From: Bacteroidales bacterium
GTDB taxonomy: Bacteria; Bacteroidota; Bacteroidia; Bacteroidales; JAADGE01
Reading direction: 5' to 3'
NCBI GenBank assembly: GCA_021648725.1
Contig: JAKISF010000030.1
Span: 1 to 40,301 of the forward strand
DNA: 40,301 nucleotides
Part shown: positions 1-17,485 of the stretch, in pieces
Layout of the letters: each line of letters starts with the position of its first letter
How positions within the stretch are numbered: the first letter of the stretch is position 1
Notes under the pieces: model-generated
The model's input: only the letters and a program-made list of their open reading frames with translations
Told to the model about the DNA's origin: nothing
Databases searched by the model: none
Program-made: the position numbers and the translations under genes

Positions 1-1
1 A

Positions 2-223: not shown

Positions 224-232
224 TGATATAAT
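224..232 (+). promoter_or_regulatory. Extended -10 promoter of nadE
   Basis: TGATATAAT matches the extended -10 consensus TGnTATAAT exactly and lies about 30 bases before the nadE start. Campylobacterota sigma-70 promoters typically show an extended -10 and little -35 conservation. The same nine bases recur upstream of the DUF2018 gene at 5212. Confidence 0.65.
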
Positions 233-263
233 ATTTTTTGTTAAAGTTACTTAAAGGTTAGTG

Positions 264-1070
264 ATGAAGAAATATGAGCAGATAACAACTTATCTGCAGC
301 ATTTTTTAGATAACGAAGTTCGTAAAACAGGGATTAGCTCAGTAGTTTTGGGGCTTAGTGGCGGAATTGACTCTGCTGTTGTGGCTGTACTGGCTCAAAG
401 AGTTTTTAAAGATAATCTTTTATGTGTAAAGATGCCATCACAATACTCTTCGCAGAGTTCAGTTGATGATGCAGATGAACTTTGTAAAGATTTTTCAATA
501 AACGTAATTACTTCCTCAATAAAACCAATATTGAAAATATATGAAGAATTGAATCCAAACATGAATAATCTTAGAAAAGGAAATCTTTCTTCAAGACTTA
601 GAATGACTACTCTTTTTGATATCTCTGCTAGAGAGAGTGCTTTGGTGCTTGGAACTAGTAATAAGAGCGAATTAATGTTAGGTTATGGAACTCTTTATGG
701 AGACCTCTCAAGTGCGATAAACCCGATAGGTGATTTATATAAGAGTGAAGTATATGAGTTGGCGGAGTACTTGGGTGTGTCAAAAAGTATTATTAAAAAG
801 CCACCTTCCGCAGATTTGTGGGATGGTCAGAGTGATGAGGCTGATTTGGGGTATACTTATGCCCAAATTGATAAAGTACTGAAGTTTTATGTAGAAGACA
901 GATTAAGCAAAGAAGATATTATTAAACAGGGATGTGACAGGGACATGCTCGATATGATTATTGGGCGAATATTTGCGAATCAGTTTAAGAGAAAGATGCC
1001 GGTAATTGCAAAATTGACATCTAGAACTATAAATCATGATTTTAATTATCCAAGAGATATAACTTTATAA
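264..1070 (+). CDS. nadE: NAD(+) synthetase, ammonia-dependent (NadE)
   Basis: Makes NAD+ from nicotinate adenine dinucleotide, ATP and ammonia, the last cytoplasmic step of NAD synthesis. The N-type ATP pyrophosphatase loop SGGIDS is at residues 32-37, and the family motif NKSELMLGYGTLYGD is in the centre. There is no glutaminase domain, and the length (268 aa) fits the short ammonia-using form. A GTG at 261 is also possible, but the ATG at 264 lies six bases after AAGG (254-257), the better spacing. An extended -10 box precedes the gene. The next gene starts ten bases after the stop, so nadE probably leads an operon with the aminotransferase, lpxK and argB. The gene is complete and Campylobacterota-like. 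Confidence 0.95.
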   Translation: MKKYEQITTYLQHFLDNEVRKTGISSVVLGLSGGIDSAVVAVLAQRVFKDNLLCVKMPSQYSSQSSVDDADELCKDFSINVITSSIKPILKIYEELNPNMNNLRKGNLSSRLRMTTLFDISARESALVLGTSNKSELMLGYGTLYGDLSSAINPIGDLYKSEVYELAEYLGVSKSIIKKPPSADLWDGQSDEADLGYTYAQIDKVLKFYVEDRLSKEDIIKQGCDRDMLDMIIGRIFANQFKRKMPVIAKLTSRTINHDFNYPRDITL

Positions 1071-1080
1071 AGGGTGAAGT

Positions 1081-2202
1081 ATGAAAGTTCCATTTAGTAG
1101 GTATGAAAGCAGCAGGCAAGCGCATTCAAATGTAAGTGATGTTTTAGATGGCGAAAAGTTAGACCAGGTTGCAGAGTTGGAGAGTGACTTTGTCTCTTAT
1201 ATTGGTGCGAAGTATGCACTAGCAACTTCACACGGCACTTCTGCACTTCATTTAGCAATGTTAGCTCTTGATTTAAAGCGTGGTGATAAGATAGTTTGTT
1301 CTGTCAACACTCATCCAAATGTACCGGAAGTTGTTCGTCATTTTGATGCAGAGCCGGTTTTCATAGATATAGATGCTGATACTTATAATATTAATCTTGA
1401 TAAACTTGAAGCATATTTAGAAGAAAATGTATCTAAAAAATTAAAAGCTGTTATAGTTACTCATATAGCTGGTCAATGTACGGATTTAGATAGACTTTAC
1501 GAGATGGCTAAAACATATGAAGTAAAAATTGTTGAAGATGCAAGTGAAGCTTTAGGTGCTACATATAACGGTAAAAAGATAGGCACAACAGGTGCAGATA
1601 TAACTTGTTTTGATTTTTCAGCCCATCTAAAAAAAGATGTTTGCAATGGTGGCATGCTTGTGTCAGATAATGAAGAGATTATTGAAAGAGCTAAACTTTT
1701 AAGTTCACATGCTATGAAAAAAGATGAGGATTCATTGGAATACATTTATGATATTGTAGATATCGGGTTTGATTACTCTATGAGTCAGCTAGATGCTGCA
1801 TATATTAGAGCACAAATACAAGAGCAAGATAAAAATCTACAAAGAGTTAAAGAGATTGCCGGCATGTACAGCGAAGCTCTAAAAACGGTTGATCATATAA
1901 CTATACCAAAAGCAATTAGTAGTGAACATCCATTTTCTCTTTATATAATTAAAGTAGATAAAAATAGAGACTCTTTTGCTCTTGAACTGAAAAAAGAGGG
2001 TGTTGAGGTCGGACTTCACTATATCCCACTACACTTTTTATCGTATTATAAGACAAAATATTCACTAAAAATAAATAATTTTCCTACCGCATTAACAATT
2101 TATCAGCAGGTTATGTCTCTACCAATTTATGCTAGTATGAGCGATCAAGAAGTTAAATTTGTTATAGATAAAATTAAAAGTGTTTCTTCAACAAGAGTTT
2201 AA
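1081..2202 (+). CDS. DegT/DnrJ/EryC1/StrS family PLP aminotransferase
   Basis: A fold-type I PLP enzyme of the sugar aminotransferase family, which usually transfers an amino group to a nucleotide-linked keto-sugar for surface polysaccharide or glycoprotein. Visible are the cofactor-binding HGTSALH (51-57), the PLP-ring aspartate in VEDASEALGA (D153), and the Schiff-base lysine region SAHLKKDVCNGGM (K184 or K185). The length, 373 aa, is normal. It starts ten bases after nadE with AAGGG just upstream, and lpxK follows 11 bases after its stop. The neighbouring lpxK agrees with a cell-envelope role. The sugar substrate cannot be read from the sequence, and it does not look like a typical PseC. 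Confidence 0.88.
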   Translation: MKVPFSRYESSRQAHSNVSDVLDGEKLDQVAELESDFVSYIGAKYALATSHGTSALHLAMLALDLKRGDKIVCSVNTHPNVPEVVRHFDAEPVFIDIDADTYNINLDKLEAYLEENVSKKLKAVIVTHIAGQCTDLDRLYEMAKTYEVKIVEDASEALGATYNGKKIGTTGADITCFDFSAHLKKDVCNGGMLVSDNEEIIERAKLLSSHAMKKDEDSLEYIYDIVDIGFDYSMSQLDAAYIRAQIQEQDKNLQRVKEIAGMYSEALKTVDHITIPKAISSEHPFSLYIIKVDKNRDSFALELKKEGVEVGLHYIPLHFLSYYKTKYSLKINNFPTALTIYQQVMSLPIYASMSDQEVKFVIDKIKSVSSTRV

Positions 2203-2213
2203 AAGCAAAGTTA

Positions 2214-3137
2214 TTGAAAAAAAATCTAGTTTTTTGGGTTGAAGGGTATTTCTACAGCCCAAGTTTTGTTCAAAAACTGCTCTCTATTTTACTTCTCCCT
2301 CTTAGTTGGATTTACTGTTTACTTATGTATCTTAGATTTAAGAGCAAAACTGCCCAAAACTTTGATGTAGATATTGTAAGTGTTGGAAATCTAAGTGTAG
2401 GCGGAAGTGGAAAAACACCGCTTGTTACAGCGCTGGCATCAAAATATGATGATGTTGCAATTGTTCTTCGTGGATATGGACGAGAGAGTAGTGGTTTGCA
2501 TGTCGTGAGTAATGAAGGCGAGATTTTAAAAGATGTAAACATTAGTGGTGATGAAGCTATGATCTATGCTCAGAAGCTTCCAAAGGCAATTGTTATTGTA
2601 AGTGAAGATAGAAAAGATGGAATTTTAAAAGCTAAAGAGCTTGGTGCAAAAATTATTTTTTTAGACGATGCCTACTCAAAGCACGATATAAAAAAACTTG
2701 ACTTGCTTATAGAAGTAAATTCAAGTAATACTTCCTGCTTGCCAGCCGGACCGTTTAGAGAGAGATTATGGGCTTCAAAAGAGGCTGTTACAGTAAAAGA
2801 TGGAAAAGATTTCAAAAGAGTGGTTGAACTTAAAAATAAAAGTGATAAAATGTCACTTGTAACTGCCATTGCAAGACCAAATCGTTTGAATAGTTTTATA
2901 CCACATGTGGTTAGTAAAAACTACTTTGAAGATCATCACTCATTTACAAAAAATGAGATAGAGGAGATACTTCAAAGAGATGGCTCAGATTCAGTTTTAG
3001 TAACTTATAAAGATTTTGTAAAACTAGAGTCTTTCGAACTTCCCCTTTCACTGTTAGATTTACATGTGGAAGTTGATGAAAATATATTTAAAACAATAGA
3101 TAATTATAGGAGGAATAACAGTGCAAAAAAAGATTGA
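2214..3137 (+). CDS. lpxK: Tetraacyldisaccharide 4'-kinase (LpxK)
   Basis: Phosphorylates the 4' position of the lipid A disaccharide precursor at the inner membrane (Raetz pathway). A hydrophobic N-terminal helix (about 20-41) anchors it. It is followed by the P-loop GNLSVGGSGKTP (58-69) and the DDAYSKHD motif that stands where other LpxK proteins have DDGFQH. The length of 307 aa is typical of the family. The start is a TTG at 2214 with only a weak purine-rich site ahead; no ATG fits better because the hydrophobic segment begins almost at once. The 3' end overlaps argB by 17 bases, and the argB ribosome site lies inside this gene, which suggests coupling. Confidence 0.92.
   Translation: MKKNLVFWVEGYFYSPSFVQKLLSILLLPLSWIYCLLMYLRFKSKTAQNFDVDIVSVGNLSVGGSGKTPLVTALASKYDDVAIVLRGYGRESSGLHVVSNEGEILKDVNISGDEAMIYAQKLPKAIVIVSEDRKDGILKAKELGAKIIFLDDAYSKHDIKKLDLLIEVNSSNTSCLPAGPFRERLWASKEAVTVKDGKDFKRVVELKNKSDKMSLVTAIARPNRLNSFIPHVVSKNYFEDHHSFTKNEIEEILQRDGSDSVLVTYKDFVKLESFELPLSLLDLHVEVDENIFKTIDNYRRNNSAKKD
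3108..3113 (+). promoter_or_regulatory. Shine-Dalgarno site that sets the argB GTG start
   Basis: A perfect AGGAGG ends seven bases before the GTG at 3121. It lies inside the 3' end of lpxK and is the reason for accepting a GTG start that overlaps lpxK by 17 bases. Confidence 0.8.
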
Positions 3138-3972
3138 AACAGTACAAACGCTACTTGAAGCTTTACCGTTTATAAAAGAGTTTAATAAAGAGATAGTAGT
3201 TATAAAATACGGTGGCTCAGCCCAAGAATCACCTCAGTTAAAAGAGAAGTTTGCTCAAGACATACTGCTTATGTACCTAGTTGGGATTAAACCTGTTATT
3301 ATCCATGGCGGCGGCAAGAAAATCAGTGACATGTTGGATGCTCTTAATATCGAAACAAAGTTTATTGACGGTCAGCGTGTAACTTCAAAAGATATTATGA
3401 GAATTGTAGAAATGGTACTAAGCGGAGAGATAAACAAAGAGATAGTTTCACTTCTTAACTCTCACGGTGTAAAAGCAATAGGTATCAGTGGCAAAGATGC
3501 ACATTTTATTACTGCAAAGCCAAAAGATTTTTCTAAGTGGGGACTGACAGGAAATATTACAAATGTTAAAGCTGAAGTCATTTCAAACCTTATAGCAGAG
3601 AAGTTTATTCCGGTAATCGCACCTATTGCTGCCGGTGAAGAGATGGGTCATCCTGGATACAATATAAATGCTGACCTTTGTGCCTCTTATGTTGCAAAAG
3701 CAATAGGCGCAAATAAGATTATATTTTTAACGGACACACCAGGTGTATTAAACAATGATAAAGAGCTTTTAGGCACTCTTACAAAAGCAGAAGTTGAAGT
3801 TCTAAAGGCTGATGGGACAATCCATGGAGGAATGGTGCCGAAAGTTGATGCTTGTCTAGAAGCCATAGAAGGCGGAGTACAAAAAGCGCACATAATCGAT
3901 GGCAGATTAGAACACTCTATGCTGCTAGAACTTTTTACATCCGCTGGTATTGGTACGCAGATAGTAAAGTAA
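3121..3972 (+). CDS. argB: Acetylglutamate kinase (ArgB)
   Basis: Phosphorylates N-acetylglutamate, the second step of arginine synthesis, in the cytoplasm. Amino-acid-kinase signatures are present: VIKYGGSAQ (residues 27-35), HGGGKKIS (62-69), DGQRVTS and GISGKDA, and the usual end GIGTQIVK. The 283-aa length is normal. The GTG start is fixed by AGGAGG seven bases upstream. It overlaps lpxK by 17 bases and is probably the last gene of the nadE operon. The gene on the other strand begins its stop codon only three bases after this one ends, a very tight convergent arrangement. Confidence 0.95.
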   Translation: MQKKIETVQTLLEALPFIKEFNKEIVVIKYGGSAQESPQLKEKFAQDILLMYLVGIKPVIIHGGGKKISDMLDALNIETKFIDGQRVTSKDIMRIVEMVLSGEINKEIVSLLNSHGVKAIGISGKDAHFITAKPKDFSKWGLTGNITNVKAEVISNLIAEKFIPVIAPIAAGEEMGHPGYNINADLCASYVAKAIGANKIIFLTDTPGVLNNDKELLGTLTKAEVEVLKADGTIHGGMVPKVDACLEAIEGGVQKAHIIDGRLEHSMLLELFTSAGIGTQIVK

Positions 3973-3975
3973 TAG

Positions 3976-5151
3976 CTAAACGGAGCTTTGCTCTGTTGGT
4001 GTTTTAAAGCACGCTTTCCTGGCCATTTTGTAAAAAAGTTTTTGGGTTGATAACTCTTTTGGTATTTGAGTTTTATTTATAATATTTTCACCTAAAATTT
4101 TTGCCAGATAAGGGCCAAATACAAAACCTCTTGAACCAAGTGCATTTACGACATACAGATTCGGGTAGTACTCCAGTGAGTCTTCTGGAATTTTGGTTCC
4201 ATTCTTTATGGAGGGGTGTTTTTTGATAGAATTTTCATAATCTATGATTTTGCCAATAACAGGGAAGTAACTCTTGCTTGTTGCTCTTGCGCCTTTATAT
4301 ATTTTTACAACTTCTACGTCTTCTAACCTAATTAGTTCATCCGCCTGTTTTAAAAGAGTTTTGATCTGTTCTCCATCTGTATTTATATAAAATGCACATT
4401 TATCACATGTAGTCTCACATGTCATATCTTGTGTGTCATGCCTCTGCCCAGTAGCACCTATTGATACAGTGTCATTATGTTTATTAGCTGAGACAGAGAT
4501 GGATTTATGAATATTAAAAGGGATATTGGTTGTTGTTTTAACATCAATTCTAAGTCCAAATATTGGAGATATATTCATATATGGCAGTTCAACTAAAGAG
4601 TTGCTTACTCCTTGAGCTAAAATAATATTTTTTGCTTTCAATTTTCCTGCTTCATATAGGCCGTTTTTAAAGGTTAACCCCTTTATATCTTCAACAAAAA
4701 AATCACAGCCCTCAAGCAGCTTATCACAAATCATTTTAGGCTCTAAAACAGCTGCATTTTCATAAAAATATCCATCAACATCTCTAAAGTTTTTTGAAAT
4801 ATTATGAAGTTTTTTGGTGTCAAAATACTCATTCTTTATATGATTGTTTTGTAGTTTTTCATTATTGAAATTATCATTTGGAACCCGCAGTACACCAAAT
4901 TTATCCATCGCATCAGGAATTAATTTTTGATAAAAATTTATTGAGAAATTTAGAGCAACATTTACAAAAGTGTTGTAAATATTTTTTTTACCGGGAAGAG
5001 GGGAGAGAAATGCTCCTGCTGCCCCACTTGCCCCGCCAGCAATCCCTTCTCTGTCAACGACTGCCACTGTTTTGCCATGTTGCTTTAAAAAGTAAGCACT
5101 GTTGCATCCGGCACTCCCCGCTCCAATAATTAAATAGTCATATATTTTCAT
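3976..5151 (-). CDS. FAD-dependent oxidoreductase resembling the C-terminal half of MnmC
   Basis: A D-amino-acid-oxidase-fold flavoenzyme of 391 aa. The dinucleotide loop GAGSAG is at residues 10-15, followed by GGASGAAGAFLSPLPGK (39-55), which matches the GASGnpAG block of MnmC. Near the end are GARATSKSYFPVIG (287-300) and LGSRGFVFGP (338-347), the FAD-binding blocks of that family. MnmC's oxidoreductase domain removes the carboxymethyl group from cmnm5(s2)U34 in tRNA; here it stands alone with no methyltransferase domain. Three cysteines in C-x3-C-x2-C spacing (245, 249, 252) might bind metal. The gene converges on argB and diverges from the DUF2018 gene. Substrate assignment is by family resemblance only. 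Confidence 0.75.
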   Translation of the reverse strand: MKIYDYLIIGAGSAGCNSAYFLKQHGKTVAVVDREGIAGGASGAAGAFLSPLPGKKNIYNTFVNVALNFSINFYQKLIPDAMDKFGVLRVPNDNFNNEKLQNNHIKNEYFDTKKLHNISKNFRDVDGYFYENAAVLEPKMICDKLLEGCDFFVEDIKGLTFKNGLYEAGKLKAKNIILAQGVSNSLVELPYMNISPIFGLRIDVKTTTNIPFNIHKSISVSANKHNDTVSIGATGQRHDTQDMTCETTCDKCAFYINTDGEQIKTLLKQADELIRLEDVEVVKIYKGARATSKSYFPVIGKIIDYENSIKKHPSIKNGTKIPEDSLEYYPNLYVVNALGSRGFVFGPYLAKILGENIINKTQIPKELSTQKLFYKMARKACFKTPTEQSSV

Positions 5152-5195
5152 TGTTGTATTATAGAAAAATAAGACTTAATGTCAGGTGTTAAGCC

Positions 5196-5220
5196 ATCAT
5201 TATTATAGTAATGATATAAT
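5196..5220 (+). promoter_or_regulatory. Extended -10 promoter of the DUF2018 operon, overlapped by an inverted repeat
   Basis: TGATATAAT at 5212-5220 is an exact extended -10 box, 31 bases before the next start codon. The arms ATCATTA (5196-5202) and TAATGAT (5209-5215) form a 7-bp inverted repeat with six bases between them that runs into the -10 box. It could be an operator, but in DNA this AT-rich it could also be chance. Confidence 0.5.
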
Positions 5221-5251
5221 CGCAAAATATTTAATAAAAAGGAATTGATAA

Positions 5252-5539
5252 ATGAAATACAGTGCTTTATTTGAAGATGAAGATGATGTTTTCTTAGGTT
5301 CTCCAGAGAGTAAACTTATGGACATTGTATTTACTGCTAACAATGATGTTGTAAGATTTGATTTAGCTAATTTTATAAGAAAAACAGCAGCCTTGGAAAT
5401 GCTTCTTAATGAACACTTAGGAGATGATTTTCATGAAAAAGTCAAAATGCTAATGCTTGAAGAGCGTGATGGCGTTGAAACTAAGATGAAAAGTTTATGT
5501 ATTGAACTAATGGGTGAAATCGTTTCAAAAAGCGAATAG
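5252..5539 (+). CDS. DUF2018 family protein (HP0242-like)
   Basis: A small acidic helical protein of 95 aa. It matches the Campylobacterota-restricted DUF2018 family, whose Helicobacter pylori member HP0242 folds as an intertwined helical homodimer of unknown function. No catalytic motif, signal peptide or membrane segment is visible. The start is set by AAAAGGA (5237-5243), eight bases before the ATG, and a clear -10 box is upstream. A secreted-protein gene follows six bases later, probably in the same transcript. It is useful mainly as a lineage marker for this part of the window. Confidence 0.82.
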   Translation: MKYSALFEDEDDVFLGSPESKLMDIVFTANNDVVRFDLANFIRKTAALEMLLNEHLGDDFHEKVKMLMLEERDGVETKMKSLCIELMGEIVSKSE

Positions 5540-5545
5540 ATAAAA

Positions 5546-5959
5546 TTGAGAAATTTTTTACAGGTTTTTACTCTTTTACTCTTTAGTTTTAGTTCCATTT
5601 TTGCCAATGATTTTAGAGAAATCAATAAAATAACACTAAAAAAAGATGAGCAAAAGAAAATTCTTGTAAAATACAACGACAAAGAAAAACTTTTTAAATT
5701 TAGCTGGACACTGTACAAGAATGGTGGACTCGTAGTATTTAGGTCTTACGATAAAATTGTTGCTCAAAATGTACTATATTTAAGACATAAAAATCAAAGT
5801 TTTAGGCTTGAATTGAAGCCTAGAGGAGCTGATTTTTATAATGTGCCATATATATTAGTTAAATTTAAAGAATTTAATGACAAGAGAGGCGAAGCAGAGT
5901 TTGAACTTTTGTTGTCTGATAAAAATTTCCAAATAATGTTAAAAGATTTAAAAAAATGA
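5546..5959 (+). CDS. Exported protein of unknown function
   Basis: I do not recognise this 137-aa protein. It begins with a signal peptide: a basic start, a hydrophobic stretch LQVFTLLLFSFSSIFA, and likely cleavage after Ala20. The remainder is lysine-rich with alternating hydrophobic residues suggesting a small beta-rich periplasmic domain, and it has no cysteines. The start is a TTG at 5546, chosen because the signal peptide begins directly there. It sits between the DUF2018 gene (six bases before) and the polyprenyl synthase gene (13 bases after), so it is probably co-transcribed with them. Confidence 0.7.
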   Translation: MRNFLQVFTLLLFSFSSIFANDFREINKITLKKDEQKKILVKYNDKEKLFKFSWTLYKNGGLVVFRSYDKIVAQNVLYLRHKNQSFRLELKPRGADFYNVPYILVKFKEFNDKRGEAEFELLLSDKNFQIMLKDLKK

Positions 5960-5972
5960 TTAAAGAGAGATA

Positions 5973-6860
5973 ATGCAGAGAGTTGAGAAAGAGATAGCAA
6001 GACTTATTGATGAGTGTGATTATGATGAAGTAACTCGCCTTTTTGGAATGCTCTCTGGAGGAAAAAGACTTCGCGCCAAATTAATTTTAAAGATAGCAAG
6101 TGAGCATGAAGAAGCTCCTCTTCTTGCGGCTATTGTAGAGCTTATTCATGGGGCAAGTCTCTTACATGATGATGTAATCGATGAAGCAAGTCTTAGACGC
6201 GGTATTCCCTCTGTAAATGCAACAGATGGTAGTAAAACAGCTGTAATGCTTGGAGATATTCTCTACTCAAAAGCCTTTACTGAACTGGTTTCTTTTGATA
6301 AGAAAATCGCTAAAATAATCGCTTCTTCTGTTACTGCACTCTCTAAGGGTGAAATGATAGATGTAAAGATGGCTGATGAGTTTAACTCGGACGAAGAAAA
6401 ATACCTTGACATGTTATATCTCAAAACTGCTACCTTAATAGAAGCCGCTGCTGAAGCTAGTGCTATTTTGACCGGTAAAGACTCTGTCTCACATGCTCTT
6501 TACGGAAAAAATCTTGGTCTATCTTTTCAAATTATTGATGATATTTTAGATATTACTGCTGATGCAGCGACACTTGGTAAACCTGCTATGAATGATTTTG
6601 TAGAGGGTAAGTGTACACTGCCATATATTTATCTCTATAAAGTTTTGAATGAAGAGGATAAAAAAAGGTTGGTTTCTCTGCATGGGAAATTGTTGGGCGA
6701 GCAAGAGAGTGCTTGGATCAAGCAGAAGATGCAAGAGCACAAAACTATTGAAAAGTCTTTTGAGTTAGCGCAGAAACTTTCAAATGAGGCAATGAATGCC
6801 ATGAAAGATGATGTTGAGCTCATAGGTATTTTACATACAATGATAAAAAGAAGTTACTAA
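5973..6860 (+). CDS. Polyprenyl diphosphate synthase
   Basis: A trans-isoprenyl diphosphate synthase that condenses isopentenyl diphosphate onto allylic diphosphates. The first aspartate-rich motif DDVID is at 66-70 (in LLHDDVIDEASLRRG) and the second DDILD at 189-193 (in QIIDDILD). The GGKRLR substrate-binding block is at 29-34. The 295-aa length and the residues before the first motif suggest a long-chain (octaprenyl-type) enzyme supplying the quinone side chain rather than farnesyl synthase, but chain length cannot be fixed by eye. Its stop codon overlaps the hemA start by one base (TAATG), so the two are translationally coupled. Confidence 0.88.
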   Translation: MQRVEKEIARLIDECDYDEVTRLFGMLSGGKRLRAKLILKIASEHEEAPLLAAIVELIHGASLLHDDVIDEASLRRGIPSVNATDGSKTAVMLGDILYSKAFTELVSFDKKIAKIIASSVTALSKGEMIDVKMADEFNSDEEKYLDMLYLKTATLIEAAAEASAILTGKDSVSHALYGKNLGLSFQIIDDILDITADAATLGKPAMNDFVEGKCTLPYIYLYKVLNEEDKKRLVSLHGKLLGEQESAWIKQKMQEHKTIEKSFELAQKLSNEAMNAMKDDVELIGILHTMIKRSY

Positions 6861-8152
6861 TGCACTATTTACTTATAAGTTTTACACATAAAAATTCAAC
6901 TATGGAAGTTAGAGAGAAATTGTCCTATCCGGATGATAGTCATAAAATGAAATTACTGACGCAGCTAAATAGCCATGAAGCTATTAATGAAAGCATGCTT
7001 TTGTCAACTTGTAATAGAATGGAAGTATTTTGTAGTTCCAATGATGTTACCAGTGCTACGGAATATATATTTGAGTTATTAACACAAAACTCGAATATTG
7101 ACATGTGCAAACTTAAAGAAAGACCAGATGTGTTTGATGACAGTAGTGCCGTGCATCATCTTTTTAGTGTTGCATCTTCCATTGACTCTATGGTAGTTGG
7201 TGAGACTCAAATTGCCGGTCAGTTAAAAGATGCTTATAGGTTTGCATATGATAATAGTTTTTGTGGTCAAAAGATTGCGAGAGCTGTTCATCATGCTTTT
7301 AAGTGTGCAGCAAAAGTTAGAAATGCTACAGATATATCTTCTAAACCAGTCTCTATTGCCAGTGTAGCAGTTTCAAAACTAAAATCAGTCCTCAATAATG
7401 TTGAGGGTAAAAGAGCCCTAGTTATTGGTGTTGGAGAAATGTCAGAGATTACAGCTAAGCATCTTGTATCAAATGGTGCTGATGTTTATATTATAAACAG
7501 AACAAAATGTAGAGCCTCTGAACTAGCCAAGGAGTGTGGAGCAAAAGTCTTAGATATGGACCAGCTTGCAACTGCTGTAAATGAGTTTGAGATTCTTTTT
7601 ACTGCAACTTCTGCCCCAAAACCAATCATTACAAATGAAATTGTCAAACCTTGTGATTTTGACAGATACTGGTTTGATATGGCACTTCCAAGGGATATAG
7701 ATTCTCATGGGGATGAGCGCATAAATCTTTTCGTTATAGATGATTTAAAAACTATTGTAGATGAAAATATAGGTTTACGTGAAGATGGAGCAAGAAAAGC
7801 TCATGGTATTATTGGTAGAAGTACTGTAGAATTTTTTGAGTGGCTGGATACTTTAAATGTTGAACCGGTAATAAAAGAGATATATGAAAAAGCTTTTAAA
7901 GCGGCAAAAGAAGAGAGTGACAGAGTCATGAAAAATGGCTATATTCCAAAAGAGTATGAGGCACAGGTTCATAAGATGAGTGAACAAGTTATGAAAAGAT
8001 TTTTACATGAAATGACTTCTAAGATGAGAGGTGTTTCAGAAGATGCAAAATCAGATACAGTAACAGGTGCCTTACAGTTTTTAATAAAAGATAATGATGA
8101 AATGCCAGAGAAGTATAGACGTGAACACGCTTCTGATAGTAAACGAGGATAA
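6860..8152 (+). CDS. hemA: Glutamyl-tRNA reductase (HemA)
   Basis: Reduces glutamyl-tRNA(Glu) to glutamate-1-semialdehyde, the first committed step of the C5 haem pathway. The catalytic cysteine is in [11 protein letters not shown] (C51), the substrate region is [16 protein letters not shown], and an NADPH-binding loop is in [15 protein letters not shown]. The C-terminal helical dimerisation domain is present, and the 430-aa length is normal. It overlaps the polyprenyl synthase gene by one base, and proS starts two bases after its stop. The hemA-proS order is what I expect in Sulfurimonas-type genomes, where hemC would follow but is missing here because of the junction. Confidence 0.96.
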
Positions 8153-8154
8153 AA

Positions 8155-8994
8155 ATGAGAAGAAGTAGAGCGTTTATTCCAACAACAAAAGAAGCACCGT
8201 CAGATGCAACTCTGCCTAGTCATCAATTTCTAGTAAGAGGCGGTTTTATAAACAGCCAAGGTGCTGGGCTTTATAACTTTATGCCACTTGGAAAAATTGT
8301 ATTAGAAAAGATTAGATTTATCGTAAAAGAAGAGTTGGACAGGGCAGGTTGTAATGAAGTACAGCTTAGCTTTGTGACTCCTATTAGTTTATGGGAAAGA
8401 AGCGGTCGTTCTGAGACAATGGGAAAAGAGATGCTTCGTATTAAAGATAGACATGAAAATGATTTTGTACTGAGTCCTACAAATGAAGAGGCTATGGTAG
8501 AACTAGTAAAAAACAGAATAACTTCTTACAAAGATTTACCTCTAAATTTATATCAGATTAATACAAAATTTCGTGATGAAGCAAGACCTAGGTATGGACT
8601 TTTACGAGGTCGTGAGTTTTTGATGAAAGATGGATACTCTTTTCACTCTTCTAAGGAAGACATGGTCAGAGAGTTTGACTTGATGCAAGTGACGTATAAA
8701 AAGATATTCACTAGACTTGGGCTTGATTTTAGAGTGGTTGAAGCTGATAGTGGAGCTATTGGTGGAGATGGAAGTAAAGAGTTCCATGTTTTGGCAAATA
8801 GTGGTGAAGATACTCTTGTTGTGTGTGAAGCATGTGATTACGGTGCAAATATTGAAACTATCTTTGACAATGAAGAAGTTGATGCCTTAAATGAAAAATC
8901 TTACGAAGAGCTAAAAGAACAAAAAATTGATAAGCAGTGTTCTTGTGGAGCTGACCTTCACTTTAAAAAAGGGATTGAAGTTTTTTCTTGTTAA
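8155..8994 (+). CDS. proS: Prolyl-tRNA synthetase (ProS), N-terminal half only, cut at the junction
   Basis: Charges tRNA(Pro) with proline. The class II N-terminal features are intact: the start [18 protein letters not shown], the ATP-site block [21 protein letters not shown], and the beginning of the insertion domain with paired cysteines. The family is normally about 570 aa, but this frame ends after 279. The last family-like residues are KKGIEV (to 8982), which normally continue GHIFQLG; the final F-S-C and stop come from the DNA beyond the junction. The rest of the catalytic domain and the anticodon-binding domain are absent from the window. The break coincides with a change of organism, so it is best explained by misassembly rather than mutation. 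Confidence 0.92.
8962..8982. other. Junction between Campylobacterota and Bacteroidota sequence, with about 20 bp shared
   Basis: Read on the plus strand these bases complete the ProS block FKKGIEV. Read on the minus strand they complete the GT9 block NFNPFFK. Beyond 8982 ProS makes no sense, and below 8962 the glycosyltransferase makes no sense. A shared stretch of about 20 bases joining two broken genes in opposite orientation is what a short-overlap assembly error produces. Promoter and ribosome-site styles and gene families also switch here. Confidence 0.85.
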
Positions 8995-9099
8995 AAGAAA
9001 TATTTGCTCATCGGGATATTGTTCCGATAACGCTTTTAATACGGGAACACATAAGGCAACATCGCCCATTGCCGATAATCTGATAACTAAAATCTTCAT
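8962..9099 (-). CDS. Glycosyltransferase family 9 (heptosyltransferase-like), N-terminal fragment
   Basis: The first 46 residues are a clear GT9 N-terminus: [16 protein letters not shown] with the glycine-rich GD turn, then [22 protein letters not shown]9 enzymes transfer heptose or similar sugars to lipopolysaccharide core at the inner membrane. The family is around 340 aa, so some 290 residues are missing. The open frame continues to 8911, but those residues are antisense proS and not part of this protein. It lies 43 bases downstream of the DUF4254 gene on the same strand, a pairing common in Bacteroidota. Confidence 0.8.
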
Positions 9100-9142
9100 T
9101 TTTAAAGAGCAATGATGAAAACCGAAAAATTACATTAAAAAA

Positions 9143-9745
9143 TTATTCCGAGTTTCTTAATATCGGATTAAGCTTAGGATCATTATACATTTTCATTTGC
9201 TTGTATGTTTTAATAATCGCTTTTCCCGTTTTAATATTTTTAAAAAGTTGATTTATTGCCAAAGATAAATCTTCTCGTTGTTGAAGCAAAATTTTTAATT
9301 TAAAAGAACATTTTTCTTTATGTTCCGAATCGGCATCTTCTCTTTCGGCTTCTTCACGCATATGGTAAATTTTCAAATTTAAGATAGACAATCTGTCAAT
9401 TGCCCATGCAGGAGTTTCTGTAGCAATAAATGCACTCGAATTTGCTTCGACATTTTTTAATTCATTGAAATAGTAATCATCAATAAGTTCAACAAGGTCT
9501 GTTCTGTCTTGATTTGATTTATCAATTGCACGTTTAAAAATAAGAGCTTTTTCGGGCTCAATAGCCGGTTCTCTTATTATATCTTCAAGATGCCATTGAA
9601 CAGTATCAATCCAATTTTTTTTATCAAGAAGAAATTCAATGCTGTCTTCTTTATATTCGGATGAATGTTTTAAAGTTATATCATTCTTGATATGATATTT
9701 TTTTATGCTTTCTTCAAAAATCTTGTTGAATAATTTGCTGTCCAT
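9143..9745 (-). CDS. DUF4254 domain protein
   Basis: A 200-aa soluble, helix-rich protein matching the Bacteroidota DUF4254 family: an opening TVQWHLEDIIREP region, a central AIDRLSILNLKIYHMREE helix, and QQREDLSLAINQLF near the end. No signal peptide or membrane segment is seen. No biochemical function is established to my knowledge, but the gene commonly precedes a family 9 glycosyltransferase, as here, which suggests a role linked to lipopolysaccharide core synthesis. A TAnnTTTG promoter box lies 23 bases upstream of the start. Confidence 0.82.
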   Translation of the reverse strand: MDSKLFNKIFEESIKKYHIKNDITLKHSSEYKEDSIEFLLDKKNWIDTVQWHLEDIIREPAIEPEKALIFKRAIDKSNQDRTDLVELIDDYYFNELKNVEANSSAFIATETPAWAIDRLSILNLKIYHMREEAEREDADSEHKEKCSFKLKILLQQREDLSLAINQLFKNIKTGKAIIKTYKQMKMYNDPKLNPILRNSE

Positions 9746-9768
9746 TTATTGTTTTTAGTTTAGGGATG

Positions 9769-9776
9769 CAAATGTA
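9769..9776 (-). promoter_or_regulatory. Bacteroidota -7 box for DUF4254/GT9
   Basis: On the minus strand this reads TACATTTG, matching TAnnTTTG, 23 bases before the DUF4254 start codon. No convincing -33 TTTG is seen at the usual distance. The rest of the 255-base gap up to 10001 holds only the pump-operon terminator; no gene is seen. Confidence 0.45.
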
Positions 9777-9943
9777 AAAAAAAAAGGCAAAGGCATATAT
9801 TATTTTATTTTTTGTTTCAGGAATTTAACATTTAAACTTAGAATACCGAATCGGGAATTACAAGGAATTGATGAAAATATCAAATTAATTGCTAAATGAC
9901 GAATAAAAATATCTTACAGAACAAAGACCTTAATGCTTTAAGT

Positions 9944-9980
9944 AAAAAGTTGCAGAGCTCTTCAAAAGTGCTTTGCAACT
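9944..9980 (-). terminator. Rho-independent terminator of the RND efflux operon
   Basis: AGTTGCA (9948-9954) pairs with TGCAACT (9974-9980), and the stem continues through a wobble pair to about 12 bp around an 11-base loop. On the minus strand it is followed by a T-run from the A-tract at 9944-9948. It lies about 20 bases beyond the stop codon of the pump gene. Confidence 0.7.
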
Positions 9981-10000
9981 AATTTATCTGTACTGTTTCT

Positions 10001-13000
10001 TTATTTATTAAATTTCAATTTTACTTTATTACCAATCATATACATAACGGGAACAAGTATTAATGTAAGGAATGTGGCAAATGTAAGTCCGAAAATAACT
10101 GTCCAAGCCATAGGTCCCCAAAAAACTGCATTATCGCCGCCGAAATATATGTTGGGTTTAAAATCGCTGAGCAAAGCTGCAAAATCAATATTTAAACCGG
10201 TTGCCATCGGCAACAAACCGAGTATAGTAGTAATTGCGGTTAATAATACCGGTCGTAATCTGGTTTGTCCGCCTTTTACTATTATGTTCACAATTTCATC
10301 AAAAGGAAGATTTGCGTCTTCTTCAAGTCCTAATTCTTTTCTTCTCAGCTGTTTTAGATAATCAATATAATCAATAAGAACAATGCCGTTGTTAACGACA
10401 ATTCCGGCAAGAGAAATAATTCCTACGCCTGACATAATTATCACAAAATCCATTTTAAAGGTAGCAATTCCGCCGAACACACCTATTGTGCTGAAAATAA
10501 CTGTTGCAATAATAATAAACGGTTTTATTATTGAGTTGAATTGTGTAACCATAATCAGAATAATCAAAGCAACTGCAATTAACATTGCTTTCATCATAAA
10601 ATCTTCTGTTTCTTTTTGTTCTTCCTGTTCTCCGGTTAGTTCATATTTATACCCGTCTTTAAATTCAAAATTGTCGAGTATTTTTCTTAACTTATTATTA
10701 ATCTCTGTTCCGTTTGCACCTTCAATTATATTTGAGTATAATGTTATAACACGCTTGTTGTCAATTCGTTTTATTGCACTGAATGAACTTGTATATTCAA
10801 ATTTTGCAACCGAAGAAACCGGTACGTGAACAAATTTTCCGGTTGAGGGGTTTCTGAAGGTGATTATTTGATTTAACAAAGTTGAAATGTTATTTCGATA
10901 TTCGGGAGCAAGTTGAATTTGTATCGGATATTCTTCATCACCTACTTTTAAATCGGATATTTCTTTTCCGAATAATGCAGTTCTTATTGTTGCTGCAATT
11001 TGTCCGGTTGCCATTCCGAATCTTCTAACGGCATCTCTGTCAACTGTTATCAACAATTCCGGTTTGTTGAGGTCTAAATCCGGTTTAAGTCCTTCGATTC
11101 CTGAAATTCCGGAATGATTAATTATTTGAGTAACTGTATCGGCATAAATCATTAATTGATTAAAATCTTCGCCCGAAAGTTCTATGTTTATCGGTTTTCC
11201 CGTGGGCGGTCCCATAGTATTTTTTTCAACAGAAATAGTTACTCCCGGATATTTTCCGATAAGAGAATCGCTGACAATACGCATTAGATTTGATGTATTC
11301 CTTCCCATTCTGAATTCAAAATCGACCATATTTACCGTTGTAATAGATTTGTTGGGTCGGTTATCCGTTGCTCGTTCATTTTCTCCGACAGCACCTTTTC
11401 CTATTGTGGTAACCATTGATTCTACGATTGAATCTTTAAAATAGTCTTCATTTGTAAGTATTTCTTTCAGGTCTTTTTCAATCTCTTTTGCAATACTGTC
11501 AGTTGCCGTAATATCTGAACCAATAGGGAGCTCAGATTTTACCATAAAGAATTTGGGTTCATTCAAGGGAAAAAGGTTAACTTTCGGACTTCTTAATTTC
11601 ATAAAGCCGATTGTTCCGAACATCAGCAGTATTGTTCCGAGAAGAAATAATGTAGGTTTTCTCCCTTTTAAGGCATATTTTAAAAAGTTAAGGTAGAATT
11701 TCTCTAATTTAATAAGCAAAACTTCCTGAAACCAAATTGAGATTTTAAAAAAGATATAAAAGTTTAATATTGTGACGATTGCAATAACCATTAATAAGTT
11801 TGCCGCAATCATTAATTTTGTAATGTAAAAGATGATTGCAAAAGCTGTTAAAACTCCGGTAATAATGAGGGTTCTTTTTTTGGGCGGTTTTTCGCCTCCT
11901 TTTGATTTGAAAACTAATGTAAATGCCGGTATTATTACAAGAGCAACAAATAATGAAGATGACAGAACAATAATTAATGTTTTTGGCAAAAAGCCCATAA
12001 AAGAGCCCATCATTCCGGGCCAAAAAAGAAGCGGAACAAATGCTGCAAGAGTTGTTGCCGTTGAAGCAATAATTGCCCATGCAATTTCGCCTACACCGAG
12101 TTTTGCGGCTTCAAATGCCGAATACCCTTGTTGCCGGAAGCGATAGATGTTTTCTACTGCAACAATTCCGTTATCAACAAGCATTCCCAGAGCTAATATT
12201 AAGCTGAAAAGAACAATCAGGTTAATGGTTGAACCGATTGCTCCGAGAATTACAAATGAAATAAACATTGACATAGGAATTGCAATACCTACAAACATTG
12301 CATTTCTTGTTCCGAGAAAGAAAAACAGAACCCACATTACAAACAGTATTCCCATTATAATGCTGTTTTCCAGGTTTTTAATCATTTTCCTGACCATGTC
12401 TGATTGGTCGTTTGTAACGGTTACGGTTAAACCTTCGGGGAGTATTGTTTTTTCGGCATTTTCGATAATTTCAAAAATTTGCTCGGAAGTTCGAATAAGA
12501 TTTTCTCCGCTTTTTTTAATAACCTGAAGTGTAACAACTGTTTCACCGTTTAATCGCGATATGCTTTGTATGTCTTCGTATCCGTCAATTACTTTTCCTT
12601 CTTTTAAAACATCTTTTAAGTAAACAATATTTCCTTTTTCACTTTTTACAATTATGTTATTAAGTTCTTCGATATTTTTAAATTCGCCCTCAGTTCTTAC
12701 TGAACGCCTTGTGTTTCCTATTATTAAATCTCCGCCTGACATACTCATGTTTTCATACGCAATTGCGTTTTCAATATTATCAAATGAGATATAAAAGGCA
12801 TCCATTTTTTGTTTGTCAAGATTAATTCTGATAAGTTTTTCTTCAGCGCCGTTTATATTTACTTTTGAAACTTCATTGATTTCTTCAATTTTTTCTTCGA
12901 GATATTCTGCATACATTTTTAGTTCATCGGTTGAGAAATCTCCTGATAAATTGATGTTTATTACAGGGAATTCAGACGGGTCAATATCAAGAACAACAGG

Positions 13001-13393
13001 GTCAACGGGCAGGTCGTCAGGCAGTTCGCTTTTTGCTCGATCAACAGCATCTTTAACGTCTTGTAAAGCTGTTTTAATGTTTACATCTGAATTCATATCT
13101 AACATAATCAATGAATTATCTTGCGAAGATGTTGATGTCATGTTTTTGATTCCGTTTACGGTAAATACCTCTTTTTCAAGAGGTTTGGTTACAAGGTTTT
13201 CAATGTCGGAAGGAGCATTTCCGGGATATGGTGTTTGAATCATAACCATGGGCAAGGCAACTTCGGGATACATTTCTTTCGGAAGGTTTTTGTATGTTAA
13301 TCCGCCGGCAATTGCCAAAATAGCAATTAAAAGATATACCGTGTTTTTATTTTTTAGAGATGCTGTTGTTATGTTAAATTCTCGTCGTTTCAT
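10001..13393 (-). CDS. RND efflux pump, inner-membrane permease (AcrB/HAE-1-like)
   Basis: A proton-driven exporter that forms a trimer in the inner membrane and passes substrates to the adaptor and outer-membrane channel. The 1130-aa protein has the usual layout: TM1 near residue 20, a large periplasmic loop, TM2-6, a second loop and TM7-12. The TM4 relay motif reads LALGMLVDNGIVAVEN, so the first of the two AcrB aspartates is kept and the second is Asn. The TM10 lysine position is Asn in GIVVNNGIVLID. Between TM6 and TM7, around residues 505-560, there appear to be two extra hydrophobic segments. It is the last gene of tetR-tolC-adaptor-pump and ends before a terminator. The substrate is unknown. 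Confidence 0.93.
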   Translation of the reverse strand: MKRREFNITTASLKNKNTVYLLIAILAIAGGLTYKNLPKEMYPEVALPMVMIQTPYPGNAPSDIENLVTKPLEKEVFTVNGIKNMTSTSSQDNSLIMLDMNSDVNIKTALQDVKDAVDRAKSELPDDLPVDPVVLDIDPSEFPVININLSGDFSTDELKMYAEYLEEKIEEINEVSKVNINGAEEKLIRINLDKQKMDAFYISFDNIENAIAYENMSMSGGDLIIGNTRRSVRTEGEFKNIEELNNIIVKSEKGNIVYLKDVLKEGKVIDGYEDIQSISRLNGETVVTLQVIKKSGENLIRTSEQIFEIIENAEKTILPEGLTVTVTNDQSDMVRKMIKNLENSIIMGILFVMWVLFFFLGTRNAMFVGIAIPMSMFISFVILGAIGSTINLIVLFSLILALGMLVDNGIVAVENIYRFRQQGYSAFEAAKLGVGEIAWAIIASTATTLAAFVPLLFWPGMMGSFMGFLPKTLIIVLSSSLFVALVIIPAFTLVFKSKGGEKPPKKRTLIITGVLTAFAIIFYITKLMIAANLLMVIAIVTILNFYIFFKISIWFQEVLLIKLEKFYLNFLKYALKGRKPTLFLLGTILLMFGTIGFMKLRSPKVNLFPLNEPKFFMVKSELPIGSDITATDSIAKEIEKDLKEILTNEDYFKDSIVESMVTTIGKGAVGENERATDNRPNKSITTVNMVDFEFRMGRNTSNLMRIVSDSLIGKYPGVTISVEKNTMGPPTGKPINIELSGEDFNQLMIYADTVTQIINHSGISGIEGLKPDLDLNKPELLITVDRDAVRRFGMATGQIAATIRTALFGKEISDLKVGDEEYPIQIQLAPEYRNNISTLLNQIITFRNPSTGKFVHVPVSSVAKFEYTSSFSAIKRIDNKRVITLYSNIIEGANGTEINNKLRKILDNFEFKDGYKYELTGEQEEQKETEDFMMKAMLIAVALIILIMVTQFNSIIKPFIIIATVIFSTIGVFGGIATFKMDFVIIMSGVGIISLAGIVVNNGIVLIDYIDYLKQLRRKELGLEEDANLPFDEIVNIIVKGGQTRLRPVLLTAITTILGLLPMATGLNIDFAALLSDFKPNIYFGGDNAVFWGPMAWTVIFGLTFATFLTLILVPVMYMIGNKVKLKFNK

Positions 13394-13436
13394 ATTTTTT
13401 GAATTGCTGTATTTTTTTATCTTTCAAAAGAAAAGT

Positions 13437-14543
13437 TTATTTTACAATTTCAACTGTTGTTCCTGAATTGATTAGGTTATAACCTTCTGCAATTATTTTT
13501 TCGCCTTCATTTATTCCGGATTCGACAATGGTGTTATTTCCGGTATGCATTCCTGTTTTGATATATCTTTTTTCGGCTTTAAATTTTCCGTTTTCTTCTT
13601 TTGCAATAAAAATGTAGTTTCCTTTTCTGTCACTTTTAATAATTATCGAAGGGATTGCATAATTTTCGCCTGAATAATCTGATAAAATGATTTTTGCAAT
13701 CATATTCGGTTTAATTTTTTTGTCTTTGTTTTCAATTTTAACAACAACTTTAAATGTTCTGTTTGCACGGTTAATAATATTTCCTGTTCTGTTAATTGTT
13801 GCAATTTTTATTAAATCGGGGTAGGTCGGAAATTTAACGGTAACAGAATCTCCTTTTTTGATATACGGTAAGTATTTTTCGGATATATCTGCTTCAACTT
13901 CCATAATGTTAAGGTTTACTAAGTCAATAACTTGTCTGCCGGGCATAGCCATTTCACCTTTTTTGAAATAAATTTCATCAACAATACCTGAGAACGGTGC
14001 AGTTATTATGCTCATTTGATATTGTGCATTAACGGTTGCAAGTTTTGCTTCAAGACTTTCTTTTTGGTTTTTTGCTTGTAAATAATCTATTTCTTTGCCT
14101 ATTTTTTGCTCCCAAAGTGTTTTTTGCTTTTCATACAGAACTTTTGCAAGTTCTAAACCTGTTTTCAGTTCTTTTATACTGCTTAATATTACATCTGAAT
14201 TAAGTGTAACCAGTAATTGTCCTTTTTTTACAAATTGTCCTTCTTTAACATAAATTCGTTTAATTTGCCCGTTCATTTCAGGAGAAATAAATGCCATATT
14301 TACGGCTTTTGCGGTTCCGGTTGAAGAGAATGAATGTTTAACCTTGGTTTTTTTTGCCTCAATAATTTTAACTTTTATACTGTTTTCAAAAACAGCATCC
14401 GGATTTTTATGCAGTTCTTTTTCAAGTAATTTAATTTTTTCTTTATACTCGAAAATCTCATTTTTAATATCTTCGGTTGATCTTTCAGAACTGCATGCTC
14501 CGAAGAAAAGTGCGGTTATTAGGATGATGCTGATTTTTTTCAT
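13437..14543 (-). CDS. RND efflux periplasmic adaptor (membrane fusion lipoprotein)
   Basis: Links the inner-membrane pump to the outer-membrane channel. A lipoprotein signal with lipobox FFGAC (Cys17) anchors it in a membrane. A short coiled coil (about 25-45) precedes the lipoyl half-motif VKEGQFVKKGQLLVTL. A helical hairpin (about 120-180) and the second lipoyl half ITAPFSGIVDEIYFKKGEMAMPG follow, then beta-barrel and membrane-proximal domains ending in GINEGEKIIAEG. The 368-aa length is typical of HlyD/AcrA adaptors. It lies 43 bases upstream of the pump gene and 72 downstream of the tolC-like gene. Confidence 0.92.
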   Translation of the reverse strand: MKKISIILITALFFGACSSERSTEDIKNEIFEYKEKIKLLEKELHKNPDAVFENSIKVKIIEAKKTKVKHSFSSTGTAKAVNMAFISPEMNGQIKRIYVKEGQFVKKGQLLVTLNSDVILSSIKELKTGLELAKVLYEKQKTLWEQKIGKEIDYLQAKNQKESLEAKLATVNAQYQMSIITAPFSGIVDEIYFKKGEMAMPGRQVIDLVNLNIMEVEADISEKYLPYIKKGDSVTVKFPTYPDLIKIATINRTGNIINRANRTFKVVVKIENKDKKIKPNMIAKIILSDYSGENYAIPSIIIKSDRKGNYIFIAKEENGKFKAEKRYIKTGMHTGNNTIVESGINEGEKIIAEGYNLINSGTTVEIVK

Positions 14544-14615
14544 TTTATATATTTTAAAATACTTTGTTTATTGTAATTTGTGAACTTCATTTAATCAGTT
14601 AAAAGATTTTTGTTT

Positions 14616-16025
14616 TTACAATTGATTCATTAATCTTTTTAAACTTATGTGTTTGTCAATAAGTTGGTTTAATGCTTGATAATATGATGTTAATGCTTGA
14701 AAATATTGTGTTTGGTAGAGTGCCAAGTTAAAACTTTGCTCGGTTCCTATTTTGAATTTTTTATATGAGTTTTCATAAATCTTTTTTGCCAGATGTCTTT
14801 GCTCAGATGTATTCCTTACCGTATTTATTGCTGTTAAAAAATCTGCTTTTGTTTGTTCTGTTTCTAACATTAGTGCTTGCTTTGTTTGGCTTTTTAGGTT
14901 TTGCATTTTTTCCAAATCAAATTGTGCTTGTTTAATTTTTGCATAACGTTGCCCGCTGCTGAAAATAGGTATGGAAACTTTGATTCCCCAAACAGAAGTC
15001 GGATACCATTCAGCATCTTCGGAAAAGAAATTTAAAGAATCCAGCATTGCTTTTTTCTGATATGAGTAAAATCCTACAACAGAAGGTAAGGTTTTTGTTT
15101 TTTCGCGTTGCAGACTTAAATCAGCAAGGCTTTCTTGCACTTGAATTAGTTGATAATCAATATTTTGATTAATGTTAAATTCTTCCGCAAATAAATTATT
15201 TTCTTCAATTTCTTCAATAGCGTCACTTAGTTTTCCTGAAATATTTATTTTTTGATTGTAATCAATTCCTGATTGAAATTTAAGAAGCCTGTATAAAATT
15301 TCTTTTTGCTTTTTGAATGATATAAGTGAGTTCTCTGTACTTTTTAGATTTAATTTTAATTGTTCAACATCTGTTTCTTCTAAAAAGCCGGCTTCATATA
15401 ACTTTTCATTTTCACCTAATAATTTAGCAATACTTGAATATACAGAATCTAAAGCGATAATGCTTTCTTCGGTAATCAAAATTAAATAATATGTTTTTTC
15501 AATATTTTCTTTTACTTCAATTATGCTTTTATCTTTTGATTTCTCAGATAAATTCATATATATTTTTGATGCTCGCAAACCGACAATATATTCTCCGCTG
15601 AAAATAATTTGAGATACTGAAACACCCCAGTCGGCATTGTACTTGTTTCCGAATTGAATCGGTATCTTATTACCTTCGGTAAACGGAGCAAGCGGTGTTA
15701 AACCGAATGCATTTGTATTAACGTCATAAACTGCGGGAGCAATGAAATTGGGCATTAATTGAGTAGGGATTTCAGTGAAATTTTCATATTGCAATGAGCC
15801 TGAAACCTGAGGTAAGCCGATCGCTGTTGTTTCCCATTTTATTGCTTTTGATTTTTTAATATCCAACTCTGAATTTTGAATTTGGTAGTTATGTTCAATT
15901 GCATAGTTTTTTAATTCTTCTAAAGAATAGTTTGCGGAACTGTCGGAAGAATTATTTTGAGCACTTGAAAAATTAACTAATAAGATAAGTAAACTTAACA
16001 GAATTGTGTTTCTAATTTTTAACAT
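14616..16025 (-). CDS. TolC family outer-membrane efflux channel
   Basis: The outer-membrane and periplasmic tunnel of the tripartite pump. A signal peptide ends near FSSAQ (about residue 23). The mature protein is a repeat of long helices with strands, including SGEYIVGLRASKIYMNLSEKSK and a C-terminal LYQTQYFQALTSYYQALNQLI, the pattern of the outer-membrane efflux protein domain. The 469-aa length is normal. It lies between tetR (10 bases upstream) and the adaptor gene. Confidence 0.9.
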   Translation of the reverse strand: MLKIRNTILLSLLILLVNFSSAQNNSSDSSANYSLEELKNYAIEHNYQIQNSELDIKKSKAIKWETTAIGLPQVSGSLQYENFTEIPTQLMPNFIAPAVYDVNTNAFGLTPLAPFTEGNKIPIQFGNKYNADWGVSVSQIIFSGEYIVGLRASKIYMNLSEKSKDKSIIEVKENIEKTYYLILITEESIIALDSVYSSIAKLLGENEKLYEAGFLEETDVEQLKLNLKSTENSLISFKKQKEILYRLLKFQSGIDYNQKINISGKLSDAIEEIEENNLFAEEFNINQNIDYQLIQVQESLADLSLQREKTKTLPSVVGFYSYQKKAMLDSLNFFSEDAEWYPTSVWGIKVSIPIFSSGQRYAKIKQAQFDLEKMQNLKSQTKQALMLETEQTKADFLTAINTVRNTSEQRHLAKKIYENSYKKFKIGTEQSFNLALYQTQYFQALTSYYQALNQLIDKHISLKRLMNQL

Positions 16026-16035
16026 TTTATTATTT

Positions 16036-16647
16036 TTAGTCTAATTCTTTAATTTTTTGGTTTAATAATTTTATTCCTTTCGGGCTGCAAATTGCTCTGA
16101 GGTGGTAAATAAACATTTGCTTCATTGCATGCGGTTTTGTAAATTCTTTAAATGAAACAATTGAGTTTTCAATTTTTTGCACTTGAAGTATAACTCTTTG
16201 TTTTGCAATTAGTTCTATATCAATATCGTTATAGTATAAACCTTCTTTAATTCCTTTCTTAAGATTTTTAAGCATCATTTGATAAACTGAAAATGATTTT
16301 TTTTCTTTTAATTCTTTGTCAACTACAGGATAATATTTATGCATATCATATTCTACCGAAGGATTATGCGTTTTCAGCATATTTATAAGGTTTTTATGTA
16401 TTTCAAGAACTTCTTCTACGGCATTTAATTTCTTTTTTGTTATGGCTTCAAAACGTTTACTTTGTATGCCGAATTCGTAACGGAATGCTTCTGTCAGTAA
16501 ATCAATTTTATCATTAACATATTTATATAATGTTTTTTTTGAAATCATACATTCTCTGGCAACATCATCCATGGTAACACTTTTGATTCCGAACTTTTTA
16601 TATAAAGAAGTTGCGGTTTCTATTATTTTTTGTTTAATGTCTTCCAT
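16036..16647 (-). CDS. TetR family transcriptional regulator
   Basis: A 203-aa repressor with an N-terminal helix-turn-helix: IIETATSLYKKFGIKSVTMD followed by DVARECMISKKTLYKYV (about residues 9-45). The C-terminal ligand-binding part is specific to the protein. As first gene of the efflux operon it very likely represses its own operon and is released by a pump substrate. An inverted repeat and promoter box lie immediately upstream. The -7 box ends only four bases before the ATG, so the mRNA may be leaderless. It is followed by the tolC-like gene after ten bases. Confidence 0.92.
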   Translation of the reverse strand: MEDIKQKIIETATSLYKKFGIKSVTMDDVARECMISKKTLYKYVNDKIDLLTEAFRYEFGIQSKRFEAITKKKLNAVEEVLEIHKNLINMLKTHNPSVEYDMHKYYPVVDKELKEKKSFSVYQMMLKNLKKGIKEGLYYNDIDIELIAKQRVILQVQKIENSIVSFKEFTKPHAMKQMFIYHLRAICSPKGIKLLNQKIKELD

Positions 16648-16651
16648 GTCG

Positions 16652-16702
16652 CAAACATATAAAACATTTTACACATAGAAACGAAAAGAGTAAAAAATGT
16701 TT
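16652..16702 (-). promoter_or_regulatory. Promoter and candidate TetR operator of the efflux operon
   Basis: On the minus strand TATGTTTG (16659-16652) matches the TAnnTTTG -7 box and ends four bases before the tetR ATG. The plus-strand arms AAACATTTT (16662-16670) and AAAATGTTT (16694-16702) make a perfect 9-bp inverted repeat with 23 bases between. The arms lie where a -33 element and its spacer would be, a sensible site for autorepression. Confidence 0.5.
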
Positions 16703-16767
16703 CCTTGTTTTTAATGAAATGCTGTTTTTGTGTGATGAAAGGTTTTTACTGAAGAATAAAATGCAAC

Positions 16768-17451
16768 TTATTGCTCCAAAATACGAACTTCGGTTCTTCT
16801 GTTTTTTTGTTTTCCTTCGTTTGTGGAGTTAGATTCAACCGGTTGGGTTTCTCCGTAGCCTACTGCTGTTAATCTATCGGGAGAAATACCTTTTTTTATA
16901 AGATAATTCCTTACGGTTTCTGCACGTCTTTGAGAAAGGTCAAGGTTCATGTCTGCTTCTCCGTCGCTGTCGGTATGACCTGCAAGTTCAATTTTAAGTG
17001 TTGTTTTATGCTTCATAAATTCGGCAAGTTCGTTTAAAGATTTAAAAGAAACAGATTTAAGGCTTGCTTTATTTGTATCAAAATGAACATCTTTTAACGT
17101 ATATGTTTTCGGAAGTTCATACGAAATTCCTACATCAAATTCCATATCGTAATCGGCTTCTGCAATATCAACAGCGGTATAGTTCATGTCTTGGTCAAAG
17201 GATTTTATTTTGATTTGATAAACAGAGCCGTTTGGTAATGTAATTTTAAATTTTCCGGTTTTATCGGATATTTCGGAATAAACTTTGCCGGTTTTTTTGC
17301 TTACAAAAAATATCTTATCTCCGGGACTAATATTTTTTTCCATATCAGTTACCGTAACATTTAATACAGAATGGTAAATTGTGTCTTGGGAAAAACTGTT
17401 TAGTGTTGTGAATAGAACCAGTATTGCAGAAATGTATTTTATTATTTTCAT
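16768..17451 (-). CDS. OmpA-family protein with N-terminal beta-sandwich domain
   Basis: An exported envelope protein of 227 aa. A signal peptide ends near LNSFSQ (about residue 22). Residues 25-115 look like a carboxypeptidase-regulatory/CNA-B type beta-sandwich (SDKTGKFKITLPNGSVYQIK). Residues 118-227 are an OmpA C-terminal peptidoglycan-binding domain with VHFDTNKASL, LAGHTDSDGEADMNLDLSQRRA and GYGETQPVESN, including the Asp and Arg that contact diaminopimelate. It probably ties the outer membrane to the wall. A -7 box lies 20 bases upstream of the start, within the gap to the helicase gene. Confidence 0.88.
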   Translation of the reverse strand: MKIIKYISAILVLFTTLNSFSQDTIYHSVLNVTVTDMEKNISPGDKIFFVSKKTGKVYSEISDKTGKFKITLPNGSVYQIKIKSFDQDMNYTAVDIAEADYDMEFDVGISYELPKTYTLKDVHFDTNKASLKSVSFKSLNELAEFMKHKTTLKIELAGHTDSDGEADMNLDLSQRRAETVRNYLIKKGISPDRLTAVGYGETQPVESNSTNEGKQKNRRTEVRILEQ

Positions 17452-17479: not shown

Positions 17480-17485
17480 CAAAAT

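Follow-up and report, generated by a model that had tools for sequence, protein, structure and literature searches.

The window analysed here, the whole of contig 30 of the MAG (40,301 bp), is almost certainly, to judge from sequence comparisons, an inter-species assembly chimera in which Sulfurimonas-like and Bacteroidota-like DNA were misjoined, probably via a short shared k-mer, rather than a product of gene transfer. Alignments, codon usage and same-genus searches place the meeting of two parts of differing lineage at one abrupt boundary. This boundary falls in a short stretch shared by both sides, and the glycosyltransferase gene (GT9 family) cut there continues at the end of a second contig (C49), which together lead to the chimera reading. 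The MAG comprises 3.24 Mb in 66 contigs and is rated 98.1% complete and 0.36% contaminated. A first-pass annotation had proposed an assembly misjoin, and this is supported: the sides align to different lineages, and their alignments end in the same stretch from opposite directions. The features concerned are as follows.

1..8982: Sulfurimonas-like (Campylobacterota) part, from nucleotide alignments to Sulfurimonas loci and gene families
8155..8982, plus strand: proS (family II), residues 1-276, cut at the joint (TIGR00409, 368 bits; alignment end at 8981-8982 in 10 loci)
8962..8982: joint, 21 bases fitting both proS and the GT9 gene (alignments give at least 8965-8982)
8962..9099, minus strand: GT9-family glycosyltransferase, first 46 codons, cut at the joint (later part at G000 C49:16421-17176, minus strand)
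8962..40301: the MAG's own Bacteroidota-like DNA, from same-genus alignments (query 7500-16500 only) and codon usage of 28 of 28 scored ORFs
9143..9745, minus strand: DUF4254 gene, the neighbour of GT9 in relatives (PF14063, 189 bits)

The left part had been called Campylobacterota-like, which its alignment to loci of Sulfurimonas, a member of the Campylobacterota, bears out. Its genes (261-8994) are nadE, a DegT-type aminotransferase, lpxK, argB, an FAD oxidoreductase, a DUF2018 gene, an ORF without assigned family, a polyprenyl synthase, hemA and the first half of proS. Scanning species genomes with the 279-residue ProS ORF yielded at least 566 relatives, of which the best 80 loci were compared. 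Among these 80, the top nine ProS relatives were titled Sulfurimonas (83-89% protein identity) and the tenth was titled Campylobacterales; each of these ten matches ended at residue 276. Nucleotide matches to positions 1-9000 were present in 59 of the 80 loci and crossed the joint in none of them; every one of the ten loci with alignments extending past 8859 (nine titled Sulfurimonas) ended at 8981 or 8982. Aligned pieces of the Sulfurimonas loci had 71-78% nucleotide identity, and one locus (L014) aligned in a single piece from 222 to 8982 at 75% identity, so the left block reads as a housekeeping stretch in Sulfurimonas gene order. None of the compared loci came from a Sulfurimonas genome close enough to be the source, the best having ~78% nucleotide identity, a point that weighs against the chimera reading. 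Two loci (L061 and L069) also matched the window right of 9000, solely within yebC, a conserved gene. RNA genes that might explain the left contig end were sought, but the window had no Rfam match at the gathering threshold and contained no tRNA. As a separate observation, one locus (L023) lies on a MAG contig titled Helicobacter pylori PMSS1, a title that may be an automatic mislabel; its ProS ranks among environmental Campylobacterota, with 80% identity over residues 4-235.

The right part had been assigned to a different lineage, and it does align to the MAG's own genus: all 13 same-genus genomes matched the query 7500-16500, with no match starting left of 8961. Alignments began at 8961-8965 in six of the 13 and further right, within or just before DUF4254, in another five, while the DUF4254 part was unmatched in the remaining two. 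We call the organism Bacteroidota-like because DUF4254 was found in one of 14 control genomes, Bacteroides ihuae, which is thin evidence. The interval separating DUF4254 from the RND gene (9746-10000) at first looked like another break, a reading that was rejected because an ordinary rearrangement is enough to account for what is seen there. In the window DUF4254 adjoins the RND efflux operon, but in the 10 same-genus genomes having both, the two are on separate contigs or, in the case of G003, ~47 kb from each other. A gene of 440-465 residues adjoins DUF4254 in four of five loci inspected (two shorter ORFs occupy its place in the fifth), its counterpart in the MAG lies well inside C1 (179031-180353), and codon usage is similar on both sides of 9746-10000. 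Elsewhere in the right part, a knotted carbamoyltransferase YgeW gene adjoins a gene for a YgeY-type selenium-metabolism-linked hydrolase (37549-39954, minus strand). The same part encodes a 327-aa TIR-domain protein (30465-31448, minus strand; PF13676) and a helicase of 907 aa (17486-20209, minus strand). The helicase has AAA_11 and AAA_12 domains, and its C-terminus matches the MTES_1575 nuclease weakly, below the cut-off.

Both genes at the joint are cut where the first-pass annotation had placed the breaks. ProS, said to break at residue 276 of about 570, starts at 8155 and is matched by relatives through residue 276 (base 8982), and the family II model (TIGR00409) has 568 positions; the ORF itself extends to 8994 in foreign sequence. 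The proS sequence agrees with the Sulfurimonas loci up to base 8982, after which the loci have a glycine codon and the window another codon. GT9, said to break at residue 46 of about 340, starts at 9099 on the minus strand, with residue 46 ending at 8962, and the intact same-genus copies examined have 339-341 residues. All 10 relatives compared share its codon 45 (Phe); the window's Lys at codon 46 recurs in one of the 10. The claim that one short stretch within 8962-8982 fits both genes also stood, with 18-21 bases doing so. Alignment ends put the overlap of the two sides at 18-22 bases, a range taken from comparison with relatives of the two source genes. Allowing up to one mismatch, the 21-mer of the joint occurs once in the MAG.

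By itself the 46-residue GT9 piece had no Pfam match, and its identity is based on 18 of 19 relatives. The sole GT9 domain match in the MAG lies at 16505-17134 of the 17,177 bases of C49, in a 252-codon frame open at the contig end. The rest of the interrupted gene thus runs off a contig end in the same MAG, as a break at the same locus should. DUF4254 adjoins GT9 in 17 of 19 related loci (the exceptions being L093, which also lacks the GT9 start, and L102), and on this basis the two GT9 pieces most likely come from one broken locus. Same-genus genomes keep GT9 beside DUF4254 (10 of 11 same-genus loci) without the left part, which further supports the misjoin. Residue 3 of the C49 piece aligns to residue 91 of relatives, which leaves a gap of ~42 codons between this piece and the 46 in the window; these ~126 bases were found neither in the window nor at the C49 end. 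A simple misjoin does not call for such a loss, which counts against the best explanation, although discarded short contigs could account for the missing bases.

A comparison of composition on the two sides had also been suggested, and codon usage separates them. Training of the score contrasted 26 ORFs, from three stretches elsewhere in the MAG, with 69 ORFs from five Sulfurimonas loci. It was applied to ORFs of at least 100 aa after an overlap filter; these criteria left out argB (overlap) and the 95-aa DUF2018 gene (length). The score changes sign at the joint: all eight ORFs scored on the left are positive and all 28 scored on the right are negative, the weakest of the latter at -0.007 per codon (21147-21515). 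G+C content per kb (0.31-0.37 left, 0.28-0.36 right) does not discriminate. The motif differences reported earlier held only in part. Shine-Dalgarno-like 4-mers, described as a property of left genes, precede three of 10 left genes and none of 20 chosen right genes. The TGATATAAT boxes occur twice on the left but also once on the right. TAnnTTTG boxes, described for the right side, are equally dense overall (1.45 per kb left, 1.44 right), but within 120 bases upstream of genes they occur at one of 10 left versus eight of 20 right genes. Promoter and Shine-Dalgarno motifs are weak evidence of origin, separating the sides only slightly, and were set aside as proof of it.

In the preferred explanation, the sample would have contained both a Sulfurimonas-like species and a Bacteroidota-like organism, whose genomes would have had ~21 bases in common by chance, within proS in one and within the GT9 gene in the other. 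The assembler would have passed from one genome to the other via the shared k-mer, so that the remaining GT9 part was stranded where C49 breaks off; the binner would have kept the chimera since ~31 of its 40 kb are genuine. Of this account, the two origins, the place of the joint, the stranded GT9 end and the surplus proS and hemA are shown by the data. The cause, probably a short k-mer common to both genomes in the assembly graph, and the reason for the binning are inferred. Between 62 kb of MAG DNA and 173 kb of Sulfurimonas-like DNA we counted 26 shared 17-mers, four shared 19-mers and no shared 21-mers. Extrapolating this drop very roughly gives 50-60 shared 21-mers per Mb x Mb, or hundreds between genomes of this size, a figure that is an extrapolation and not a count and that compares with a few under a uniform random model. 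MEGAHIT and SPAdes commonly start from a k of 21. Against a k-mer misjoin, a shared stretch of 18-22 bases should normally be resolved by larger k in a multi-k assembler.

Passages of PMC7299287 and PMC8201837 name misassembly as a source of chimeric contigs, and those of PMC7299287 name shared k-mers in the graph. The window resembles these chimeric contigs of metagenome misassembly in joining two genomes in one contig; it differs in that the passages stress closely related species, whereas here different phyla share ~21 bases. A passage of PMC8201837 also describes misassemblies as rarer than mis-binning, which counts against a misjoin.

One phylum's genes on another's contig are likewise what inter-phylum horizontal transfer would produce. 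On this reading, which we consider very improbable, at least 9 kb of housekeeping genes would recently have passed from a Sulfurimonas-like donor into a Bacteroidota-like cell. The fragment would have entered GT9 via ~21 bases of microhomology by illegitimate recombination, with ~42 codons deleted and C49 as the far flank. Such an event would explain both the ~126 lost bases and why GT9 is divided between two contigs, and, with the left part stopping at the contig end, its second junction could be outside the contig. However, of the two junctions that a transfer would leave, one is seen: the left end is the contig end, and the C49 end, where the cut gene continues, carries GT9 alone, with no Sulfurimonas DNA. 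Of the 13 same-genus genomes, 12 had no match to the left 8,961 bases and the other had a single chance match of 58 bases, so the block is present in none of them. Its uninterrupted Sulfurimonas gene order and native, Sulfurimonas-like codon usage also argue against transfer, and family searches named no mobility gene among its 10 ORFs. The block is redundant as well: elsewhere the MAG encodes a complete family I ProS on C34 (490 aa; TIGR00408, 555 bits) and a HemA on C22 (417 aa; TIGR01035, 335 bits), so the left copies of proS and hemA are surplus. The second proS half was not found in the bin, where it was sought by DNA search alone. A DNA search of the MAG with the 10 kb downstream of the proS half in L014 gave one match, ~0.5 kb long at 64% identity, which lay 7.7 kb from proS. 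We leave transfer its slight chance because ~42 GT9 codons are unaccounted for. Molecules joined before sequencing, as a chimeric library or amplification product, would yield the same two-lineage contig and likewise leave GT9 broken, and amplification chimeras can form at short homologies, but at ordinary depth such a molecule, being rare, should be outvoted, and we find this origin barely credible.

Read as an assembly chimera, the contig holds nothing biologically new, chimeric contigs being a familiar error of metagenome assembly. It nonetheless places ~9 kb from another phylum in one contig of a MAG despite the rating of 98.1% completeness and 0.36% contamination. Left uncorrected, it would introduce false Campylobacterota-type annotations (nadE, lpxK, argB, hemA and a second proS) and a spurious inter-phylum transfer. 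We recommend splitting the contig at 8962-8982 and dropping its left part from the bin; genes to the left and right of the joint should not be assigned to one organism.
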